This document shows, piece after piece, positions 4,449 to 21,765 of a stretch of DNA of 21,765 nt. The position numbers and the translations under genes were made by a program. The DNA is from Dehalococcoidia bacterium (GTDB lineage: Bacteria; Chloroflexota; Dehalococcoidia; Dehalococcoidales; RBG-16-60-22): assembly GCA_030615035.1 (NCBI GenBank), contig JAUXAC010000016.1:1-21765 (forward strand), given 5' to 3'. Each line of letters opens with the position of its first letter. Position 1 is the stretch's first letter. Under the pieces are notes generated by a model. It was not told the DNA's origin, searched no databases, and worked only from the letters and a program-made list of their open reading frames with translations.

Positions 4449-4469
4449 AGCGATGATTAAAAGAAAGAA

Positions 4470-4487
4470 ACAGTAGCCGAATACTGT
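4470..4487 (+). promoter_or_regulatory. Hairpin-RBS element, copy 1
   Basis: ACAGTA-GCCGAA-TACTGT is a perfect 6-bp stem with a 6-nt loop. GGAGG (4488-4492) follows with no gap and the ATG is 6 nt further at 4499. It is one of eight related elements in the window. The TAG of a seven-codon mini-ORF (4453-4476) lies across the end of the 5' arm. Confidence 0.8.
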
Positions 4488-4498
4488 GGAGGTAAAAG

Positions 4499-4708
4499 AT
4501 GCGCATTAAGCAACCATATTGGTTTACCGGGCTTTTCGGCACTATAGGCATTGTCACGGGCGAGGACGAAGTGACCGGAAAGAAGAAGGCTTATATTGGA
4601 ACAGCGCCAGGTTTCGATGAAGACGCTGACTCGCAGCATATTGCAAAAACCGGCTCACCGGTAGTCCCCAGGCAAATAGCCGAAATCCTGGAAGACCTAA
4701 AAGATTGA
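4499..4708 (+). CDS. Small phage protein behind hairpin 1
   Basis: A 69-residue protein starting MRIKQPYWFTGLFGTIGIVTG. The first half is beta-rich with alternating Gly and hydrophobic residues, like a small barrel or SH3-like strand set. The second half is acidic ('FDEDADSQH') and ends in a short helix ('RQIAEILEDLKD'). There are no cysteines, no membrane anchor and no signature that I recognise. Translation is set by GGAGG directly behind hairpin copy 1, and its TGA stop overlaps the first base of hairpin copy 2. It is the first of four small genes each preceded by such a hairpin. Confidence 0.7.
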   Translation: MRIKQPYWFTGLFGTIGIVTGEDEVTGKKKAYIGTAPGFDEDADSQHIAKTGSPVVPRQIAEILEDLKD

Positions 4709-4726
4709 CAGTATTAGCCTACTGTC
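4707..4726 (+). promoter_or_regulatory. Hairpin-RBS element, copy 2
   Basis: GACAGTA-TTAGCC-TACTGTC is a perfect 7-bp stem with a 6-nt loop, followed at once by GAGGAGGG (4727-4734) and an ATG at 4739. The loop differs from copy 1 while both arms are kept, so pairing is conserved rather than just sequence. The TGA of the upstream gene (4706-4708) overlaps the base of the stem. Confidence 0.8.
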
Positions 4727-4738
4727 GAGGAGGGAAAT

Positions 4739-4915
4739 ATGAAAGTCATTCATTTGAGAGATGCACAACTACGTAGTCAGCCTCTCCACTTTGATTCCAG
4801 ATGCAACCCTGGAGCTACACGGCTTACCGATAAAGTCGAGGAGGTCACTTGTAAGACCTGCCTGCGTATGCTCAAAAGAGCCGAGAAGGCAAACCAATTA
4901 AGAGATAAACAGTAG
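4739..4915 (+). CDS. 58-residue protein with Cys motif
   Basis: A short ORF beginning MKVIHLRDAQLRSQPLHF and ending ANQLRDKQ. Cysteines at 22, 38 and 41 ('CNPGA' and 'CKTC') together with His5 or His17 could form a small zinc site. The CKTC knuckle followed by a basic helix ('LRMLKRAEKANQ') recalls one half of a treble-clef or zinc-ribbon finger, so a small nucleic-acid or protein-binding role is plausible. The ATG lies 4 nt after GAGGAGGG behind hairpin copy 2. Its own stop codon, TAG in the context CAGTAG, is inside hairpin copy 3. Size and spacing match its neighbours, which supports a real gene. Confidence 0.7.
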   Translation: MKVIHLRDAQLRSQPLHFDSRCNPGATRLTDKVEEVTCKTCLRMLKRAEKANQLRDKQ

Positions 4916-4926
4916 TCTTATACTGT
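4909..4926 (+). promoter_or_regulatory. Hairpin-RBS element, copy 3
   Basis: ACAGTA-GTCTTA-TACTGT is a perfect 6-bp stem with a 6-nt loop, followed by CGAGG. The TAG stop of the upstream gene (4913-4915) lies inside the hairpin. Sixteen of its bases (AGTAGTCTTATACTGT) are identical to copy 4, which stands 344 bp downstream, beyond the next gene. Confidence 0.8.
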
Positions 4927-4930
4927 CGAG

Positions 4931-4948
4931 GTATTCCTAAGAGAATAC
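4931..4948 (+). repeat. Second, unrelated hairpin before an RBS
   Basis: GTATTC-CTAAGA-GAATAC is a perfect 6-bp stem with a 6-nt loop, the same geometry as the ACAGTA family but a different sequence. GGAGGG follows at 4951-4956 and the ATG is at 4961. The 9-mer GTATTCCTA recurs at 5227-5235, just after the next gene, where it again begins a small hairpin (ATTCC-TACA-GGAAT, 5229-5242). Confidence 0.6.
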
Positions 4949-5218: not shown

Positions 5219-5252
5219 AAGCATAAGTATTCCTACAGGAATGATTAAATAA

Positions 5253-5270
5253 ATAGTAGTCTTATACTGT
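5253..5270 (+). promoter_or_regulatory. Hairpin-RBS element, copy 4
   Basis: ATAGTA-GTCTTA-TACTGT pairs over 6 bp with one U-G pair and a 6-nt loop. GGAGG (5271-5275) follows directly and the ATG is at 5281. The preceding gene ended at 5218, so here no natural stop codon lies in the stem. A tiny ATGATTAAATAA frame just upstream shares ATGATTAAA with the mini-ORF before copy 1. Confidence 0.75.
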
Positions 5271-5280
5271 GGAGGCTGAA

Positions 5281-5475
5281 ATGATAAGTTATTGTGACGA
5301 TTGTGGGGAATATCTAGGAGATACGGTCAACGGCAAATTATTCAAATTCGGTAAGCTAGTAACAGGTGAGCATATATGCCCAGGGATGTCTTTTCCCAAG
5401 AAGGTTGGGGTGGACGAACTACCACCCATTAAAAAGCCCATACCAAATGTGTTTGAAAGACAAACTAAACAGTAG
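5281..5475 (+). CDS. Small zinc-binding protein
   Basis: A 64-residue protein starting MISYCDDCGEYLGDTV. Cys5 and Cys8 form a clear CxxC knuckle. A third Cys at 33 ('GEHICPGMSF') and His31 could complete a zinc site, giving a rubredoxin-like or zinc-ribbon finger. The C-terminal third is Pro- and Lys-rich. I take ATG 5281, 5 nt after GGAGG, rather than GTG 5269, which lies inside hairpin copy 4. Its last codons, AAA CAG TAG, run into hairpin copy 5, the same arrangement as for the 58-residue gene. The partner is unknown. Confidence 0.7.
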   Translation: MISYCDDCGEYLGDTVNGKLFKFGKLVTGEHICPGMSFPKKVGVDELPPIKKPIPNVFERQTKQ

Positions 5476-5486
5476 TCGCATACCAT
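5469..5486 (+). promoter_or_regulatory. Hairpin-RBS element, copy 5 (decayed 3' arm)
   Basis: ACAGTA-GTCGCA-TACCAT: the 5' arm and loop length are kept, but the 3' arm TACCAT leaves two mismatches. GGAGG (5487-5491) still follows directly, with ATG at 5498. The TAG stop of the upstream gene (5473-5475) is inside the element. Confidence 0.6.
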
Positions 5487-5497
5487 GGAGGATTGTT

Positions 5498-5851: not shown

Positions 5852-5927
5852 CGCGGGGTAGAGCAGTGGTCAGCTCACCGGCTCCATAAGCCGGAGGTCG
5901 TTGGTTCGAATCCAACCCCCGCTACCA
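5852..5927 (+). tRNA. Initiator-type tRNA-Met (CAT) with C33
   Basis: A 76-nt cloverleaf with encoded CCA. The acceptor CGCGGGG/CCCCGCT has C1 opposite U72, hence no Watson-Crick pair at 1-72. The D-stem GAGC/GCTC carries A11-U24. The anticodon stem CCGGC/GCCGG holds loop TCCATAA (anticodon CAT at 5885-5887), and the T-arm is GTTGG-TTCGAAT-CCAAC. The open 1-72 position and A11-U24 are hallmarks of bacterial initiator tRNA, so I call tRNA-fMet rather than elongator Met. Two oddities are visible: position 33 is C where U is nearly universal, and the third of the three anticodon-stem G-C pairs is reversed (C31-G39). It lies between small phage genes, so it is carried by the element. A decayed gene is possible. 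Confidence 0.85.
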
Positions 5928-5958: not shown

Positions 5959-6888
5959 ATGGTGACACAAGTGAAAGAGCCAGGAGTAATTGAGGAGGTA
6001 TTAGAGCATCCTCTTGTTCGTCTACGCCTAGCGGCCGACGAGCTCGGGATCCCCATTGATATTCGGCCCTGGTGGGGATCTCGAAGGGAGACTAATCGCC
6101 GACTGCACACGGTCTGTGGTGATGGCGATGTCTTCGACGCTTGGGATTGGGAAAGACAGATTGTCAGGCCGTGGTGCCACCGGTGCCGTCGGTTTCTACC
6201 TGAGGAAGAAATCAAGGTAGTCCCTATGCCGCATAAATGGCTCTGCCCCCGCGTAAAGTACCCCCAGGTTCAGGGTGACACCGTCATCTTCTGGGAGGGG
6301 GAGTGTGGGATGAGGCGGAGCACCAAGGGACACAATCACCGCCAGAGCATAGAGCTAATCGACGTTGGTGCCCACGCTTTCCTAGTGAGCCTCAAAACAG
6401 GAATAGCCGGCCGAAACTTTCTCATAGGCAAGGATGATGGGCACCCATTTGCCACGATGATAGCGCGCCGTGTAATCACTGTCCAGGATGCCTTCGATTG
6501 GCTAGTTCCTAAACTCGTCAGAGAGGCTTATATTCTGGGCAAGGAAGTAAAGCGCCAGGGCGACTGGTTTTTCATCCTGGACAAGAACGACCCACTAACA
6601 CGCCAAAACGGTGGCACCATGCGAGTAGTCGGCTCGGACCCGGGTCTCGAAACCAACATCTTATATCACGATGTCCACCTCATTTACAATGGAGTCCAGA
6701 CTAGGCACATCGGCAGCATGGTCGTCCATAAAGGACTGATAAATACCACCTATGGAGCGCCAAGGGTCAAGGGAGAAGTGAGAGCTCCGGACCATCCCAC
6801 GCTGACCCTCGAGAGCTGGCATATTGGCGTTAGGAGAAGAAGCGGCTCAGGGTCGTCGGATGAGACTTCCAGGCCGGGGCTAGATTGA
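5959..6888 (+). CDS. Conserved-looking phage protein with Cys/His pairs
   Basis: A 309-residue protein behind a strong AAAGGAGGG site. The N-terminal half has cysteines at 53, 73, 76 (WCHRC), 96 and 116, which may form a zinc site. The C-terminal half contains 'KRQGDWFF' (198-205), 'HIGSMVVH' (250-257), 'VKGEVRAPDHPTLTL' and 'SWH' (286-288). That order resembles a group of uncharacterised phage and mobile-element proteins I have seen with RQG-W-F, a His-rich middle and a final HP-WH motif, but I cannot name the family. There is no signal peptide or transmembrane segment. It is the largest gene of the small-gene block and follows the tRNA directly. The role is unknown; nucleic-acid binding is plausible. 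Confidence 0.72.
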   Translation: MVTQVKEPGVIEEVLEHPLVRLRLAADELGIPIDIRPWWGSRRETNRRLHTVCGDGDVFDAWDWERQIVRPWCHRCRRFLPEEEIKVVPMPHKWLCPRVKYPQVQGDTVIFWEGECGMRRSTKGHNHRQSIELIDVGAHAFLVSLKTGIAGRNFLIGKDDGHPFATMIARRVITVQDAFDWLVPKLVREAYILGKEVKRQGDWFFILDKNDPLTRQNGGTMRVVGSDPGLETNILYHDVHLIYNGVQTRHIGSMVVHKGLINTTYGAPRVKGEVRAPDHPTLTLESWHIGVRRRSGSGSSDETSRPGLD

Positions 6889-6893
6889 AATTA

Positions 6894-6911
6894 ACAGTAG
6901 TGAAATACCGT
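6894..6911 (+). promoter_or_regulatory. Hairpin-RBS element, copy 7
   Basis: ACAGTA-GTGAAA-TACCGT pairs at five of six positions with a 6-nt loop. GGAGG (6912-6916) follows without a gap and the ATG is at 6924. The upstream gene stops at 6888, so the stem is free of its stop codon. Confidence 0.7.
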
Positions 6912-6923
6912 GGAGGCTAAAGT

Positions 6924-8163: not shown

Positions 8164-8217
8164 AAGCAGTTATGAGACGAGCTGTTGCGCAAAATATACC
8201 GCTGGCGGGGGGACACT

Positions 8218-9081
8218 ATGCCACGGCGTAGAATGATAGACCCCTTCTTTTGGAACGACCGCAAGCTTGCTAGGCTATCTAGAGATGAGCGTAGCCTCGT
8301 TATAGGCTGTGTAGGCCACGCCGATGATGAAGGCCGATTGGAAGCCGACCCAGCCTATCTTAAGGCAATGATATTTAAGTATGACGAAGACCTGGATAAC
8401 ACGGCGGTTCAAGAATTAAGAGATAAATGCCTCAGCGAAATGTCAACTTGGCCACCTACCCATCCTTACCACATGGTTCTCTATCAAAGTTCAGATGAGG
8501 AGTACATCTTTTTCCCCAACTGGAATGTAACAAATAGGCCTTCCCATCCTTCAAAATCACAGCTACCGCCACCCCCTCCAGAGAGTCTCCCGATATTCTC
8601 TAGAGCTTCTCCAGAGGAACACCCGAAAGCCTCCGCCCTAGGTCAGTCAAGTCAAGGTAAGGGTAGTATAGGTCAGGTCAGTGCAGTTCAGGAGGACTTC
8701 GCGAAATTTCTAGTTTCAGAAAAGGACTTGACTGACTTTTTATTGACGACTTTGACTAAATATATATCCGCCGGGCGGGCGCGGGCTCTTGAAGCTGAAG
8801 GTGGACCAGATAAGCTGTCGCCTGAGACAGAAGCCAAAGTGAGGATGAGTTGGGGTATCCAGGTACTCGAGAAGTGCTGGAAGGATGGCGTTGGCGAGGA
8901 CATACCAACTCGAATATTTGAGGGCGCCAGAGGGGCACTAAAGGATTACCCCCTCGAAGTTGTGGCTAGAGCATTTGCTAAGGGGGTGCGCTACAAAGGC
9001 GGCAAGCATAAAAGCTGGAAGTATATCCAGACTATCATCGATGAGGAGATGGAGAAGCGTGGACGTAGCCCGCCGCATTAG
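8218..9081 (+). CDS. Phage replication initiator / replisome organiser
   Basis: A 287-residue protein. Its N-terminus (MPRRRMIDPFFWNDRKLARLS..., with 'CVGHADDEGRLEADPAYLKAMIF') has the pattern of the winged-helix N-terminal domain of phage replisome organisers, which bind the origin and recruit the helicase loader. A low-complexity linker rich in Pro, Ser, Gln and Gly spans about residues 115-158. The C-terminal part, about 190-287 ('MSWGIQVLEKCWKDGVGEDI...HKSWKYIQTIIDEEM'), resembles a DnaD-like helical domain. The frame also allows TTG 8185, but ATG 8218 has a GGGGGGA stretch before it and begins where the family pattern begins. Unusually, the linker DNA holds an 11-unit pentamer array. RusA follows downstream. 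Confidence 0.78.
   Translation: MPRRRMIDPFFWNDRKLARLSRDERSLVIGCVGHADDEGRLEADPAYLKAMIFKYDEDLDNTAVQELRDKCLSEMSTWPPTHPYHMVLYQSSDEEYIFFPNWNVTNRPSHPSKSQLPPPPPESLPIFSRASPEEHPKASALGQSSQGKGSIGQVSAVQEDFAKFLVSEKDLTDFLLTTLTKYISAGRARALEAEGGPDKLSPETEAKVRMSWGIQVLEKCWKDGVGEDIPTRIFEGARGALKDYPLEVVARAFAKGVRYKGGKHKSWKYIQTIIDEEMEKRGRSPPH
8640..8694 (+). repeat. Intragenic AGNNN pentamer array, 11 units
   Basis: Eleven consecutive pentamers all begin with AG, most as AGGTC, AGGTA, AGTCA or similar, in strict 5-nt phase inside the linker of the replication initiator gene. The array encodes a Gln/Ser/Gly-rich stretch. It is followed by three TTGAC motifs (8728, 8743, 8752) and an AT-rich tract (about 8757-8767). 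This layout is like lambda O, where the origin iterons lie inside the initiator gene, so this is a candidate replication origin. The same step and AGG core recur in the arrays at 13109-13350. Confidence 0.6.
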
Positions 9082-10186: not shown

Positions 10187-10410
10187 TGGTTACCGCTTTC
10201 CTTACTTGGAAATGCCATATTTGTGGTGAAGAAAGGCCGGACGACAAGATATCCGTAGTCACCAAACCTCTCGTCATCAACGGTCAGGTTTGCGGTGACC
10301 AGAATATCAGATACTGCAACGATAGGCCAGCCTGTATAGAGGGGGCAAAGGATTTTAGCTTTTTCAAAGAGGGGAGCAATGGAAGGAAAGATAGCGCTGG
10401 AAAGAGCTGA
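10186..10410 (+). CDS. Small zinc-finger protein
   Basis: A 74-residue protein coupled by TGATG to the gene before it. 'CHIC' at 10-13 is a zinc knuckle, and Cys36, Cys44 and Cys50 can complete the site. The C-terminal end (about the last 10 residues) is Ser/Lys/Gly-rich and is read in a different frame from the PolX gene, with which it overlaps by 32 bases. This overlap suggests that the tail is not strongly constrained. It may be a nucleic-acid binding accessory of the replication block; no specific family is recognised. Confidence 0.65.
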   Translation: MVTAFLTWKCHICGEERPDDKISVVTKPLVINGQVCGDQNIRYCNDRPACIEGAKDFSFFKEGSNGRKDSAGKS

Positions 10411-10858
10411 GAAAATAGCTGCGGCGGTTGTTAAACGCCTCTCCCCCTACTGTCAACGAATAGAGGTAGCTGGCTCTGTCCGCAGGAGAAAGCCGACGGT
10501 GGCTGACATAGACTTCGTGCTCATCCCCTCTGACCTCTGGAACCTGCATCATGAAATTATGGGCATGGGTCAGGTCAGGATGAGCGGCAACAAGATCATG
10601 CGGGTTATGGTCGGCAGCACCCAAGTCGATATCTACGTCGCTAGTGAGGAAACCTTTGCAACCCTGCTCCTTATCCGCACCGGCTCCGCTGAGAATAATA
10701 TCCGCCTGGCCACCCTGGCTAAGAAAAGGGGATGGCACCTTGCTGCGTCAGGCGATGGGCTGTTTAACGAGAACGGCAGCAGGATCGCGGGGGATAGTGA
10801 GCGTAGTATCTTTGAGGCGCTCGGACTAGAGTATCGAGAGCCTTGGGAGAGAGATTGA
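10379..10858 (+). CDS. Short family X DNA polymerase-like nucleotidyltransferase
   Basis: A 159-residue protein with the palm and thumb motifs of family X polymerases. 'AGSVRRRKPTVADIDFVLIP' supplies the G-S-x-R-R motif and the metal ligands Asp43 and Asp45. 'QVDIYVA' gives the third carboxylate, Asp84. 'RTGSAENNIRLATLAKKRGW' and 'IFEALGLEYREPWERD' are the usual C-terminal signatures. The N-terminal 8-kDa and finger regions and the PHP domain of bacterial PolX are absent, so this is a compact catalytic core, as in viral gap-filling polymerases. It probably fills short gaps in repair, or adds nucleotides without a template. SD GAGGGGAG precedes the ATG; its TGA overlaps the next ATG. Confidence 0.88.
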   Translation: MEGKIALERAEKIAAAVVKRLSPYCQRIEVAGSVRRRKPTVADIDFVLIPSDLWNLHHEIMGMGQVRMSGNKIMRVMVGSTQVDIYVASEETFATLLLIRTGSAENNIRLATLAKKRGWHLAASGDGLFNENGSRIAGDSERSIFEALGLEYREPWERD

Positions 10859-11374: not shown

Positions 11375-11893
11375 ATGCCTGAGCCATCTTTTATCAAAAC
11401 AGCCAAAACAGTCAGCCAGACATTGGCTGATTTACGCCGGCTATTCGTCAAATGGGAGGTAGAGGACTGGGAGCCGATACCGGTGGAGAAGGGACCCGGG
11501 TACAGCGTGCGCTACTTTAGAAACAGAAACTGGACAGAGATTAGCTCCTATTACCAGCCAACCAAGGCGATGAATTTAAGGGTTTGCTTTCAGGTCATTG
11601 ACAATATGTTTCGGTGGGAAGCGAGAGGGGTCGGTGGGGTGGTTAAAGGGACTGCCTTTATGGGCGGTGACCTGGTCACTACCAAGATGGGAGCGAGGGA
11701 GTCCTTTGACGAGGCTTGCGCCATTATCGGTGTCGAGCCTGAAACGTCCTGGGAGGAGATTGATAGGGTATACAAGGTCAAGGTTCAGTTCGCCCATCCC
11801 GATAAGGGTGGTGACCCCCAGAGATTTAAGAGGGTTCAGAAAGCCTACGACTATCTCAAGAAAGTTAAAGGACCAAAAGGCGGTGAAAAATGA
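11375..11893 (+). CDS. J-domain protein with a unique N-terminal domain
   Basis: A 172-residue protein. The C-terminal 65 residues form a J-domain: 'SFDEACAIIGVEPETSWEEIDRVYKV' is helix I-II and 'HPDKGGD' carries the HPD triad (141-143) that stimulates DnaK ATPase, followed by 'FKRVQKAYDYLKK' (helix III). The first 105 residues form a mixed alpha/beta domain that I do not recognise ('LRRLFVKWEVEDWEP', 'SVRYFRNRNWTEISSYYQPTKAMNLRVCFQVIDNMFRWEARG'). In known phages a J-domain protein recruits host DnaK to remodel replication complexes. SD AAGGGGGTGA precedes the ATG. It overlaps the next gene by four bases (ATGA). Confidence 0.85.
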   Translation: MPEPSFIKTAKTVSQTLADLRRLFVKWEVEDWEPIPVEKGPGYSVRYFRNRNWTEISSYYQPTKAMNLRVCFQVIDNMFRWEARGVGGVVKGTAFMGGDLVTTKMGARESFDEACAIIGVEPETSWEEIDRVYKVKVQFAHPDKGGDPQRFKRVQKAYDYLKKVKGPKGGEK

Positions 11894-12543: not shown

Positions 12544-13104
12544 ATGGAAATACTGCACATAAAACTAAAGGGCGCATCACCTTTGCTGATGAATAACCCG
12601 ATAAGCATGGTTAGAGCTGAAGGTGAAGCCTTGACCCGCAAAGTTATCCCCTCACCCGAGGAGGAAGCAGCCTCAAAGCGGTATCTATTACCTGATGGCC
12701 ATTTCTATGTCCCAGGAATAGCTGTCAGGTCCTCGATGCTACTTGGGGCAAGGGGCTATCGCATAGGGAGAAGACCAGCAAGGGAAATCCTTTCAGCAGC
12801 AGTTATTTTAACCGATGAAGTGTTTCCAATCCTTAGGGATGGGAAACCGATAGCGGGTAGTGACTATTCGATTGAGATTAGAAGAGCAGTGGTCCAACGC
12901 CAGGGGGTGATGCGTGCCCGACCCAAGATTGACCTACCTTGGGAAGTAGAATGTATCTTCGGCTTTAATAGCCAACTAGCCAACCTTGAGCAGGTAAAGA
13001 CAGCACTTGAGACTGCTGGGCAAGCTGTAGGCTTGCTGGACTACCGTCCTGAGAGAAGCGGTTGGTTTGGCAGATTTGAGCTTACTGATATTTGGAGTGA
13101 GTAG
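12544..13104 (+). CDS. Conserved-looking phage protein next to the pentamer arrays
   Basis: A 186-residue protein starting MEILHIKLKGASPLLMNNP. Distinct segments are 'EEEAASKRYLLPDGHFYVPGIAVRSSML', 'RRAVVQRQGVMRARPKIDLPWEVECIF' (about 113-139) and a Gly/Arg end 'GLLDYRPERSGWFGRFELTDIW'. The opening 'SPLLMNNP' and the closing Gly-rich 'GRF' strand recall a group of uncharacterised phage proteins with a ferredoxin-like fold; a distant link to RAMP/Cas7-type RNA-binding folds is speculation. It follows its neighbour by two bases. Its stop codon is 4 bp before the first pentamer array, so the two may be functionally linked. Confidence 0.65.
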   Translation: MEILHIKLKGASPLLMNNPISMVRAEGEALTRKVIPSPEEEAASKRYLLPDGHFYVPGIAVRSSMLLGARGYRIGRRPAREILSAAVILTDEVFPILRDGKPIAGSDYSIEIRRAVVQRQGVMRARPKIDLPWEVECIFGFNSQLANLEQVKTALETAGQAVGLLDYRPERSGWFGRFELTDIWSE

Positions 13105-13108
13105 TTTG

Positions 13109-13178
13109 TGGCGAGGTAGGGTAGGGCAAGGTGTCGTGTGGTCCGGTATGGTGAGGTCAGGCAAGGCACGGCAAGGTT
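13109..13178 (+). repeat. NGGYN pentamer array 1 (14 units)
   Basis: Fourteen consecutive pentamers fit NGGYN without a single insertion or deletion. GG is kept in 13 of 14 units and a pyrimidine at position 4 in all, while positions 1 and 5 vary freely. Near the end come AGGCA, AGGCA, CGGCA and AGGTT. The array starts 4 bp after the preceding stop codon. It contains in-frame stops on the plus strand and so is not coding. Confidence 0.85.
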
Positions 13179-13201
13179 AATTAACTTAACAAATTATTAT
13201 G

Positions 13202-13271
13202 CGGTGGGGTATGGCAAGGTGGGGTCTGGCCAGGTCCGGTCAGGTAGGGCTTGGTGAGGCAAGGCAAGGGA
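13202..13271 (+). repeat. NGGYN pentamer array 2 (14 units)
   Basis: Again exactly 14 units over 70 bp in perfect phase, with GG in all and a pyrimidine at position 4 in 13. It ends TGGTG AGGCA AGGCA then AGGGA. It is separated from array 1 by a 23-bp AT-rich spacer (13179-13201) and begins 93 bp after the start of array 1. Confidence 0.85.
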
Positions 13272-13295
13272 TAAATTTTAATCTTAAGTAGCCTA

Positions 13296-13350
13296 AGGTG
13301 TGGCTCGGCGGGGTCAGGTGAGGCCAGGTAAGGTGAGGCAAGGCAAGGAA
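13296..13350 (+). repeat. NGGYN pentamer array 3 (11 units)
   Basis: Eleven units over 55 bp, with GG in all and a pyrimidine at position 4 in 10. It ends AGGTG AGGCA AGGCA then AGGAA, nearly the same last four units as array 2. The spacer to array 2 is 24 bp and AT-rich (13272-13295), and the start lies 94 bp after that of array 2. The ribosome binding site of the ParB-like gene follows a few bases later. Confidence 0.85.
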
Positions 13351-13367
13351 ATAGAAAGGAGACTAAA

Positions 13368-14027
13368 TTGAAGGTATCTGAATTAATACTGGACTACGAT
13401 TTATATCCTAGGGAGCGAATTGAGCCATTTAATGTTAATCAGATGATCGAGGCATTAACAGCCGGTCGGGAGTTGCCGCCAATCATTGTTGACCGAAAGA
13501 GTCTAAGAGTTATTGATGGCTTTCATAGAGTCAAAGCTTACCAGAAGCTTCATGGGCCGGACGCCGAAATCCCACTTGAGCTTAGAGATTATAAGGATGA
13601 GGCTGAGATGTTTTGTGAGGCAGTTCGCCTCAATGCTAACCACGGTAGGCAACTTTCAAGCTACGACCGGGCAAGGTGCATTGCCAAGGCAGAGGTACTG
13701 AAGCTTGAGCCTGAGGTTATCTCGTCCATGTTAAATATGACTCTCGAACGAATAGGCGAAATGAAGGCCCAAAGGTTTGCCACTTATAAAATGGAACCTC
13801 GGGTGTTGAAAAGGACAACAGCACACCTTGCCGGTAAAGAGCTGTCCGACGATGAAGCGCAATATAATATCAAAGCTGGAGGTATGCACCAAACCTTTTA
13901 TATAAACCAAGTGATAGTTATGCTTGAGGCTGATACCGTCAACTGGGAGAACCAGAAGGTAGTCAATGGTCTGAAGAAATTGTACAACCTTTTGGATAAG
14001 GCTATGATGATAAGCCAGACACAGTAG
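13368..14027 (+). CDS. ParB/Sulfiredoxin-like N-terminal domain protein
   Basis: A 219-residue protein whose first 90 residues follow the ParB N-terminal (ParB/Srx) pattern: 'LILDYDLYPRERIEPFNVNQMIEALTAGRELPPIIVDRKSLRVIDGFHRVKAYQKLHG', with the GFHRxxA nucleotide-binding box at about residues 50-56. In true ParB this domain binds CTP. Here the rest ('LNANHGRQLSSYDRARCIAKAEVLKLEPEVISSMLNMTLERIGEMKAQR') is helical, with an HTH-like part, and could bind DNA. Translation must begin at TTG 13368 behind AAAGGAGA. It lies directly after the pentamer arrays. Partition, transcription control and a ParB-like nuclease role are all possible. Its TAG stop lies in hairpin copy 8. Confidence 0.8.
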   Translation: MKVSELILDYDLYPRERIEPFNVNQMIEALTAGRELPPIIVDRKSLRVIDGFHRVKAYQKLHGPDAEIPLELRDYKDEAEMFCEAVRLNANHGRQLSSYDRARCIAKAEVLKLEPEVISSMLNMTLERIGEMKAQRFATYKMEPRVLKRTTAHLAGKELSDDEAQYNIKAGGMHQTFYINQVIVMLEADTVNWENQKVVNGLKKLYNLLDKAMMISQTQ

Positions 14028-14038
14028 CCGAATCCTGT
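14021..14038 (+). promoter_or_regulatory. Hairpin-RBS element, copy 8
   Basis: ACAGTA-GCCGAA-TCCTGT pairs at five of six positions and has the same loop as copy 1, about 9.5 kb away. GGAGG (14039-14043) follows directly. The TAG stop of the ParB-like gene (14025-14027) is within the element. The next ATG is 14057, unusually far (13 nt) from GGAGG. Confidence 0.7.
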
Positions 14039-14056
14039 GGAGGCTGCCAGAATAAG

Positions 14057-19989: not shown

Positions 19990-20832
19990 TTATCTCGCTG
20001 CACCACATAGCTCCTTTAGTTCCAAAAAATTATCGGTAAAATGACCCTCGGTGCAGGAACAACAGAGGGGTAATTGTGCCCCTCGCCCCTCATTGTGCAA
20101 AGCCTGATATTCCCGGTGTTTATCTGATTGCCAGACTTCCTCAATGGTATTATTATTCAGGTCTCCGAATACGACCTTGGCAAAAGGGTCAAAGCAGCAC
20201 AGATTTACCCTTCCGTCATACCTTACCGTCATATAGCTTTTAGCCCTTATACACGATGTCTGTCCTTGCCGCATATACGGGTATTGCTCTCCACACCAAG
20301 ACTGATACTGAATTACTGCTCCTCCTGCTTTAATAAAATCTCTGGCTTCCTCGCTGCTAATTTCCGGGCACCCTACCATTGACATTTGGCAGGAGACCCC
20401 AGCCTCCTCCATATATTTGATGGCACGAACAACATGGTGAAAATCATCTAATCCCATGACCTTTTTCCGTGTATCGGGAGTGGTCGCATTCAGTGATACA
20501 TCAATCTGGAGATTGGGTATTTTCCCCAGCTCCCTTATGATTCCCTCAGTAAGCAGGCCGCCATTAGTGTAAATCAGAATTTTTACTGATGGTGACAGGA
20601 TTTCACGAGCAAACCTTAACCTCCCCATGAAGTTTTTATCGCAGAATGGCTCTCCAGTGAGCATTGGAATGAAGAGCTGAAGATTGGGTAGTTCTGCTGC
20701 CTGGCGAACTATCCTCTGATAAAGCTCATCAACCATTGTGCCGAACTCGGTAAACGTGGAGTGAGGGCAGAAAACACAATGCCCATTACAGAGGTTGGTC
20801 GTTTCAACCTGGAGACAAACTAGCGAGTTCAT
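19990..20832 (-). CDS. Radical SAM enzyme with SPASM-like domain
   Basis: A 280-residue enzyme. 'TTNLCNGHCVFC' gives the CxxxCxxC motif (Cys15, Cys19, Cys22) that binds the 4Fe-4S cluster cleaving S-adenosylmethionine. 'MLTGEPF' (GGE-like) and 'DVSLNATTPD' follow the usual TIM-barrel order. The C-terminal part has 'SCIRAKSYMTVRYDGRVNLCCFD' (Cys194, Cys212-213), 'FGDLNNNTIEEVWQSDKHREYQALH' and 'PLCCSC' (257-260), a SPASM or Twitch-type auxiliary cluster region. SPASM enzymes modify peptides or sugars. No precursor peptide is obvious. It overlaps the MTase fusion upstream by ATGA, so both act together, possibly on a glycan or other surface component. It is unusual among phage structural genes. 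Confidence 0.9.
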   Translation of the reverse strand: MNSLVCLQVETTNLCNGHCVFCPHSTFTEFGTMVDELYQRIVRQAAELPNLQLFIPMLTGEPFCDKNFMGRLRFAREILSPSVKILIYTNGGLLTEGIIRELGKIPNLQIDVSLNATTPDTRKKVMGLDDFHHVVRAIKYMEEAGVSCQMSMVGCPEISSEEARDFIKAGGAVIQYQSWCGEQYPYMRQGQTSCIRAKSYMTVRYDGRVNLCCFDPFAKVVFGDLNNNTIEEVWQSDKHREYQALHNEGRGAQLPLCCSCTEGHFTDNFLELKELCGAAR

Positions 20833-21765
20833 AATATTCTCCTTGCTGTTGTCCCAGATATCTCCTCAGTTAGCCCTGCTCCAGCTAAAAGCTCGGGCCA
20901 CTTTTGGCTCCAGTCTATGTGCTGAGGGAAGAGAGCCAGCTGCTCAAAATTATTGTGAAAGAATAGGACCCCATCTGGTTTTAGTGCTTGAGCCAGCATA
21001 ATTAGGTGCTCAGGCAAGTCAGGCAGGTGTTCAAATACATCTATCGCCGCTATGAGGTCGTAAATTTCTCTTTTATCGGAAAGTGAATCTATGAAGCTTA
21101 TCCTTCCATTGCTCCTGAAGTTGGCAAAGTCAGAAACTATGCCCGGTAAATCGAGGTAGTCAACATCGGCGCCTCGCTTATGTAGTAGCAGAGACAGGCT
21201 GCCGATACCACCACCAAAGTCAAGTACCCTCAGTCCTTCTATATTGGGAAGGTAGTTAATAATCTGCTTGAAGGTATCCGAAGCATTCCATTGCGCCAGC
21301 TCAAAGAGGTATTCGGTGTTTTCGGAGTAATACTGTCTGACTTCATCCAGAGTTTGAGGATTTTTTTCCTGCCATCTTTTAGCTGACTCGAGGACGGGAC
21401 TATCCCTCATCTTCCGTTTAATGTAAGCGGGAGTCTTGTGAAGGAACTTGGCCAGATCGCGAGCAATAGGCTCTTCGCCCAGGAACTCATTAGCCTCGGT
21501 GGTATTTTGATATTGAGTAAGAAACTGGCTGGCTCCCACCGGGTCCAGCCGCAGGTGACCGAGGAGGACGGACATATCACACCAGATTTCAAAGCCGTTT
21601 TCCCTTGCCTTATCAGAAAAATATAAATCCTCGCCGCCCTTTTCAAAGGAAAACCAGGGGGAAGGAATCTTTTCGAAGACTTCTCTCTTGACCAAGAGAA
21701 ATCCAGTGCCACAGCCGCCAATCTTAATCAAACCATCGGTGCCTTCAATAGTTGCGTAGGTGATA
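20829..21765 (-). CDS. Glycosyltransferase-methyltransferase fusion (5' part cut by window edge)
   Basis: The frame is open to the window end, so at least 311 residues are seen and the N-terminus is missing. The visible first part ('GGCGTGFLLVKREVFEKIPSPWFSFEKGGEDLYFSDKARENGFEIWCDMSVLLGHL') is the C-terminal half of a GT-A fold glycosyltransferase family 2-like domain, with the acidic 'GEDLYFSDKA' and 'GH' motifs. A helical linker leads to a SAM-dependent methyltransferase: 'LRVLDFGGGIGSLSLLLHKRGADVDYLDLPG' is motif I with the Gly-rich loop, and 'YDLIAAIDVFEHLPD' is motif IV. The protein probably transfers a sugar and methylates it, or methylates a related acceptor. TTG 21731 is not a real start. 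Confidence 0.85.
   Translation of the reverse strand, partial: ITYATIEGTDGLIKIGGCGTGFLLVKREVFEKIPSPWFSFEKGGEDLYFSDKARENGFEIWCDMSVLLGHLRLDPVGASQFLTQYQNTTEANEFLGEEPIARDLAKFLHKTPAYIKRKMRDSPVLESAKRWQEKNPQTLDEVRQYYSENTEYLFELAQWNASDTFKQIINYLPNIEGLRVLDFGGGIGSLSLLLHKRGADVDYLDLPGIVSDFANFRSNGRISFIDSLSDKREIYDLIAAIDVFEHLPDLPEHLIMLAQALKPDGVLFFHNNFEQLALFPQHIDWSQKWPELLAGAGLTEEISGTTARRIL

Follow-up and report, generated by a model that had tools for sequence, protein, structure and literature searches.

What keeps three runs of degenerate pentamers in phase, on one strand, between two genes of a phage? The question is raised by a stretch of 21,765 nucleotides (contig JAUXAC010000016.1 of a Dehalococcoidia bacterium, assembly GCA_030615035.1), called here the window, in which a first, sequence-only reading had described three non-coding arrays of 14, 14 and 11 in-phase NGGYN units. 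Our recount agreed base for base, with GG in 38 of the 39 units, a pyrimidine after it in 37 of the 39, array starts 93 and 94 bp apart, AT-rich spacers of 23 and 24 bp, and near-identical ends of arrays 2 and 3, both of which terminate in GGTGAGGCAAGGCAAGG (Table 1). The longest perfect runs count 8, 13 and 10 units in arrays 1, 2 and 3, respectively, and neither strand of the window has another run of at least five NGGYN units. Stop codons occur in all six frames of 13105-13367, and the interval is therefore non-coding, as had been stated. Array 1 starts 8 nt past the end of the upstream gene, and the neighbours are those named before, a phage gene of unknown function (phrog_4652, now vipr) and a ParB-like gene.

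An origin of the arrays by chance is ruled out by shuffling: the longest run was 2 to 4 units in dinucleotide shuffles of the whole window (n=200) and 1 to 4 units in shuffles of 13100-13360 (n=2000), versus 13 observed, and shuffled sequence, which the earlier reading had named as the finding that could overturn it, never gave more than four consecutive units. Replication slippage was rejected as well, as TRF gives short partial arrays only. Short fixed steps read by a protein filament or ring are known from DnaA-trios and TRAP RNA sites; these resemble the arrays in that respect and differ from them in their motif and in having neither a guide function nor Vipr.

Table 1. Features of the array locus, in positions of the window.
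Feature	Position	Strand	Basis or remark
vipr, 186 aa RAMP/Cas7-like protein, phrog_4652	12544..13104	+	profile, fold model, tblastn
Array 1 (putative vrRNA), 14 units (unit 6 broken: TCGTG)	13109..13178	+	sequence scan
AT-rich spacer, arrays 1/2	13179..13201	+	RNA fold 0 kcal/mol, without folded 3' tail
Array 2, 14 units (13 perfect + AGGGA)	13202-13271	+	
Array 2, predicted guide, 10 units	13203..13252	+	20/20 in L244/L246, 19/20 in L254, L255
Array 2, 3' constant units GGTGAGGCAAGGCAAGG	13253..13269	+	identical to array 3 end; unmatched by target
AT-rich spacer, arrays 2/3	13272..13295	+	RNA fold 0 kcal/mol, without folded 3' tail
Array 3, 11 units (10 perfect + AGGAA)	13296-13350	+	
Array 3, predicted guide, 7-8 units	13297..13336	+	16/16 in L311 (VSGQEHKE)
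Array 3, 3' constant units GGTGAGGCAAGGCAAGG	13332..13348	+	overlaps unit 8 of guide
Candidate vap (VIPR accessory) gene, ParB-like	13368..14027	+	family, synteny, fold

Arrays of this kind are not confined to the window. Scanning viral_contigs for nine GGYNN units, as a sample rather than a census, returned at least 120 stretches, so that the search of phage sequence proposed in the sequence-only reading finds the arrays recurring; counting the window there are 121 sources, which contain 376 arrays of at least eight units, and in 119 of the 121 all arrays share one strand. Among their 5092 units the first G is absent in 1.9%, the second G in 2.6% and the pyrimidine in 1.0%, counts that include a few simple repeats (L032, L114) and in which deviations are visible solely in the remainder of the longer arrays, the search pattern having imposed GGY in nine units; in that remainder the pyrimidine is lost no more often than GG. 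NN is nearly free across the 376 arrays. Two further proposals are borne out by this set, namely that GG and phase are kept while other positions vary, and that degenerate units reflect selection on the 5-nt step and the GG, not slippage. Adjacent arrays are joined by a 4-nt unit in 62 of the 214 gaps of up to 150 nt, joints that recall the staggered arrays of published VIPR systems (PMC13142463). Long staggered arrays occur in L103, L109, L110 and L117, with blocks of about 8-13 pentamers and a 4-nt GGYN joint, i.e. a -1 change of phase. L032 and L114 consist of almost uniform simple repeats (GGCCC and GGCCA), which satisfy the pattern but do not look like VIPR arrays, and L032 distorts the skip test given below.

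The family profile (A1) of the protein encoded upstream of array 1 matches PDB 36pp_D, 'SUSP1 Vipr protein', with an E value of 6.3e-38, and a tblastn comparison of the window protein with Escherichia phage phiSUSP1 gives 26% over residues 1-186 (E 2e-7). Its AlphaFold model (pLDDT 96.2, pTM 0.89) has its best structural matches, by Foldseek and VIA-align, in type VII Cas7 and Csm3. By its profile, the product is a Vipr protein, with a Cas7/Csm3 fold as predicted by the model, and PHROG family 4652, whose function was so far unknown, can now be named Vipr. As a single-protein query against viral_contigs the window Vipr retrieved no relative. The closest viral relative is locus L130 (54%).

Gene and arrays were compared from both sides. 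The array search, which was blind to genes, yielded sources that encode a Vipr relative in 78 of 121 cases, the window among them, and the nearest array shares the strand of vipr in 76 of the 78; among the 43 sources without a relative, some stretches end near the array. For the reverse test, 79 loci were fetched by Vipr sequence alone, keeping the best 80 of 132 relatives and counting near-identical loci (e.g. L169-L171): arrays of at least six units lie within 2 kb of vipr in 62 of the 79, and the near arrays number 208 on the vipr strand and 0 on the opposite one, with 4 in the remaining 879 kb. That arrays occur on either side of vipr, the near ones all on its strand, points to transcripts. 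In 17 of the 79 loci (L131, L151, L161, L173, L174, L176, L180, L184, L185, L187, L188, L189, L191, L193, L194, L197 and L199) runs of six GGYNN units near vipr are absent; in many of these a fainter 5-nt periodicity is seen, with a looser consensus (NGYNN or GTNNN, for example), and 12 of the 17 sit in one 16-row clade of the Vipr tree. One genome (G099) has three vipr genes (L351, L355, L356) with equal match scores and identical arrays in separate places, as if part of a multi-copy mobile element.

Viral Interference Programmable Repeat (VIPR) systems and their vrRNAs were reported in April 2026 (PMC13142463). According to the accessible part of that report, Vipr uses RNAs of alternating GGY and NN, whose NN pair with DNA with one base skipped; the vrRNAs, encoded next to vipr, have about 9-16 GGY/NN repeats in phase, with GGY kept and NN hypervariable, and NN agrees with natural targets when one nucleotide is skipped, in many cases in codon register. 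The report distinguishes types I-VII and accessory genes vap1-6, and includes the SUSP1 and P. fulva systems, of type II (PMC13142463). In the window we find a Vipr RAMP protein, 14, 14 and 11 GGY/NN units beside vipr and a kept GGY, together with computational 1-nt-skip matches in codon register for two of the three arrays, as for one of four tested arrays of L130. The locus is almost certainly a VIPR system. The earlier statement that no named element has this architecture falls with the published vrRNAs (PMC13142463), and the RNA role offered there as one of several options was on the right track. More fully, the sequence comparisons very probably describe a VIPR system of a phage, itself probably integrated, with a ParB-like accessory gene, guides aimed at recombinase motifs and a 3' handle made of pentamers. 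The newly reported class is thereby extended to an uncultured lineage, and for this member specific targets can be predicted.

As far as the accessible report describes them, published systems share with the window a Vipr RAMP, GGY/NN arrays on the vipr strand, a phage setting, a DNA-binding-type accessory gene and 1-nt-skip matches at wobble bases, with mobile elements as likely targets in both (PMC13142463). The window differs in a Vipr just 26% identical to that of phiSUSP1, in semi-constant in-phase 3' units that replace the folded 3' tail, in the ParB-like nature of the accessory and in matches within a tyrosine recombinase family (PMC13142463). Because the invariable structured 3' tail of type II (the SUSP1 clade) was not found in the window, the locus was not filed as type II (PMC13142463). 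Hammerhead ribozymes between arrays, a feature of some VIPR systems, are also absent, the Rfam gathering scan of the window returning two tRNAs only. The RAMPs of class 1 CRISPR (Cas7/Csm3; type VII Cas7) have a 6-nt step, versus 5 nt here (PMC13142463), and the window differs from these systems in having a single small protein. It contains no class 1 repeat-spacer array: apart from the GGYNN arrays, the one family of direct repeats of at least 20 nt is a 36-nt repeat in dispersed copies. No class 1 Cas protein was found among 21 distinct window proteins compared with Pfam and/or PHROGs, nor by PADLOC among 10 proteins around the arrays, where an HNH gene gave one marginal Cas9-HNH match (E 8e-4).

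The gene downstream of the arrays belongs to a ParB-like family set (A3), all 21 members of which have phrog_1033. The predicted structure of its product is similar, along part of the chain, to ParB, Noc and KorB, and its profile matches ParB with an E value of 3.4e-4. Of 157 vipr loci, 24 have a relative of this gene close to vipr, each time on the same strand. A tree of 116 of the Vipr proteins from these 157 loci contains 16 rows with the gene, all inside a 25-row group (support 86/75); all 15 rows of the subgroup that includes the window and L130 have it (support 85/64, which is weak, with a bootstrap that has not settled); L104 is the one carrier outside this subgroup. Compared with nine rows that have a different accessory family, the distribution takes one change, equalled in 0 of 500 shuffles, the 91 rows in neither group being uncounted. 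On these data the ParB-like gene goes with this Vipr clade, an association new here that makes it a candidate accessory. In another Vipr clade a different gene recurs near vipr, with a median length of 173 aa and the motif 'LHxxFxWDD'; it occurs at 17 loci, among them L011, L013, L030, L035, L056, L068, L090, L099, L106 and L117, and is a further candidate accessory.

The ParB-like gene 3' of the arrays, and a replication initiation-like protein encoded at 8185-9081, would also suit a phage replication origin or a parS-like partition site, in which the 5-bp step organises a filament and the ParB-like protein binds. This reading, which includes the origin and the centromere considered earlier, is very improbable, however, since the arrays track vipr (62/79 loci) and its strand (208/208), not ParB, whose family is found at only the minority of vipr loci given above, and since NN is hypervariable and the arrays keep the vipr strand on both sides of the gene. 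Scarcely more credible, and if anything less so, is selection of the arrays as a G-rich DNA structure, either a two-tier G-quadruplex or an R-loop zone as had been suggested: GG does recur every 5 nt on one strand, but the pyrimidine that follows is kept as strictly as GG, which a quadruplex does not need, the arrays stay on the vipr strand (208/208), and the NN of two arrays matches recombinase genes.

The last point concerns the predicted targets of the VIPR guides. In array 2 the guide NN read GG AT AA GG CT CA CC CA AG TT, and this pattern of 10 dinucleotides with a 1-nt skip has 2 exact places in genome_contigs (257 Gb), where about 0.5 places are expected by chance for a 20-base pattern (arithmetic); so small an excess means that array 2 alone proves little and is a lead only. 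One place, L244, is on a Dehalococcoidia MAG contig, inside a tyrosine recombinase (PF00589, E 1e-27), in codon register at GIKGLHPHSL; L246 is the same contig, and array 2 scores 20/20 there. Two genes of phage families (phrog_464, phrog_335) neighbour this recombinase, which fits a mobile element. On the recombinase ORFs 0 of 300 shuffles were as good as array 2; with the contig that picked it set aside, the array still reaches 19/20 in L254 and L255, and 294 other arrays score 18 at most. When 120 of the 690 recombinase proteins found were compared at the amino-acid level, array 2 agreed with them at 10 residues in sense orientation and its shuffles at 7 at most, array 1 reached 7, as did 10 of 60 shuffles, and array 3 had no match to this recombinase subfamily. 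The second exact place of array 2 (L245, Deltaproteobacteria), a 125-aa frame opposite a 269-aa one, was taken as chance.

Matches were then scored, in codon register and on both strands, on 79 unique recombinase ORFs from 393 genomes of the class of the L244 MAG and from 40 stretches, 5 of them closer to the first subfamily and 74 to the second. A match to the L244 recombinase exists in 388 of the 393 genomes, and the second subfamily is found at 1e-40 in 52 of 393. The guide of array 3 (GT TC GG CA GA CA AA, then GA), with a unit number settled after seeing the results, matches 16/16 with 8 units in L311 (0/300 shuffles and 0/422 other arrays as good) and 14/14 with 7 units (0/463 other arrays); in the initial set of 36 ORFs the 8-unit guide reached 15/16, equalled by 4 of 1000 shuffles and 0 of 375 other arrays. 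Over all 10 units the best score of array 3 among 37 loci was 16/20, which 16 of 100 shuffles equalled. The recombinases of L246-L349 are zinc-ribbon tyrosine recombinases, present in 52/393 genomes at E 1e-40 with up to 7 matches per genome, some with in-frame stops.

Array 1, with the NN GA AG AG AA GT GT CC AT GA CA AA AC AA TA, decodes as [DE][SR][SR][KN]VVP[IM][DE][HQ][KN]T. Its best recombinase match is 18/24 (ERRRIVPIDEDT, L250), with 12/300 shuffles as good; on earlier ORF sets 9/100 and 12/1000 shuffles did as well as the array, and so did 3/182 other arrays for 12 units and 42/294 for 10 units. The match is not significant and suggestive only, and a recombinase target for array 1 remains a tentative assignment, somewhat doubtful. 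Of the other arrays compared, the best on recombinases belongs to L130; it scores 18/20 with 10 units and 20/22 with 11 (0/200 shuffles as good). No recombinase match was found for three of L130's four other arrays, for four L121 arrays or for the arrays of five class genomes with a distant Vipr (L350-L356), and the window itself holds none, its best scores being 17/24, 15/20 and 12/16 for arrays 1, 2 and 3. The three window-array matches fall in different recombinase copies and in two subfamilies, not in one gene. Scanned in genome_contigs with 20 bases, array 1 has 0 places, and seed scans of viral_contigs gave 9, 8, 6, 9 and 12 places whose agreement outside the seed is near chance (best 7/12, L205). 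A skip test compared 452 unique arrays with about 2.3 Mb of loci on both strands and is dominated by low-complexity arrays (L032, L039); guides of at least 22 bases had 0, 3, 2 and 0 places for skips 0, 1, 2 and 3 with 3 mismatches, and 13, 23, 13 and 14 with 4 mismatches, skip 1 sharing the codon period.

Could the locus be a true VIPR whose recombinase matches are coincidental, the guides being aimed at some unsequenced phage? The contig of array 2 was chosen by its match, motifs of tyrosine recombinases are very common and array 1 is not significant, all of which favour coincidence. Nevertheless, the sequences used for array 3 and for the L130 array had not been picked by those arrays, which beat all 300 and 200 shuffles, respectively, array 3 beats all 422 other arrays, and every match is in codon register and sense orientation, and we regard coincidence as rather unlikely. 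The recombinase family is, on these matches, probably the target of arrays 2 and 3; the weight of this claim lies on the register, the motif, array 3 and L130, because the exact places of array 2 are near chance. The correspondence of arrays 2 and 3 and of the L130 array with conserved motifs of Dehalococcoidia tyrosine recombinases, with the skip at the wobble base, is new here, and the matches support the notion of a wobble-skipping guide that would recognise a conserved protein motif across divergent mobile elements.

Where the guide ends is suggested by the composition of the arrays. In the interior units of 460 unique arrays NN is near uniform, with position 4 leaning to G (0.34), and in their last three units it is biased to AA, GA and AG; the sequence directly after the array is most often GGA (83) or GGG (73). 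The second-last unit is AA or GA in 45 of the 65 arrays of the window and L121-L139, and for NN composition versus codon positions a uniform model fits best. The run of mismatches begins at the 3' units in L246 for array 2 (from unit 11, the first putative handle unit), in L311 for array 3 and in L289 for the L130 array. From these patterns we infer that the last two to four units of each array serve as a 3' handle of the same pentamers and not as guide, a boundary suggested by match ends and semi-constant units and new here. No structured 3' tail was found, the 3' flanks of the three arrays being no more alike (0.42) than tail versus lead (0.47); these flanks show no conservation and the spacers do not fold. 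Taken over its full length, array 2 has a slightly better fold than its shuffles (6/200 as good), unlike arrays 1 and 3. The interval 12900-13500 has no promoter or terminator consensus, as expected from shuffles.

In the mechanism that we propose, following the published one, each array would be transcribed as a guide RNA, or vrRNA (PMC13142463). Vipr subunits may coat the vrRNA with a 5-nt footprint, presumably one subunit per pentamer. Vipr would keep GGY outside the duplex and expose NN, which would pair with double-stranded DNA, one base being skipped per step (PMC13142463). Arrays 2 and 3, and possibly array 1, would thus be aimed at Dehalococcoidia recombinase motifs, pairing with the first two bases of each codon and passing over the wobble base; rival elements would have their recombinase gene repressed or blocked, and the ParB-like protein might help the RNP to bind DNA. 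The phage, then, is probably equipped with a small RNA-guided weapon for use against competing mobile DNA. A broader conjecture, which we hold in even balance, is that VIPRs of the ParB type have a pentamer handle (GGYRA GGYAA GGYAA GGR) and no folded tail, the handle being built from pentamers and the guides therefore measuring 7-11 units; by wobble-skipping at conserved motifs (the PID motif, the HxLRH box, the tail after the catalytic tyrosine), one phage could hit an entire multi-copy family of tyrosine recombinases in the lineage of its host, that is, protein motifs via DNA.

The window starts with an excisionase-like gene and an alpha/beta hydrolase, whose relatives (120 of 854 listed), where named by taxon, are two Dehalococcoidia and one Deltaproteobacterium, and the integrase adjoins a tRNA-Gln (1635-1708); the phage is likely a prophage of a Dehalococcoidia-like host. 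A tRNA-Met gene lies inside the phage region at 5852-5927. The 36-nt repeat has seven copies (4457-4492, 4695-4730, 4896-4931, 5240-5275, 5456-5491, 6881-6916 and 14008-14043), with an inverted core, ACAGTA...TACTGT, followed by GGAGG, and looks like a phage operator or leader hairpin. A DNA polymerase beta-thumb protein (10379-10855) and a DnaJ-domain protein (11375-11890) both have relatives in L130. Finally, a Radical SAM-type gene lies on the minus strand at 19993-20832, adjoining a gene at 20829-21731 that is methyltransferase-like by its translation alone.
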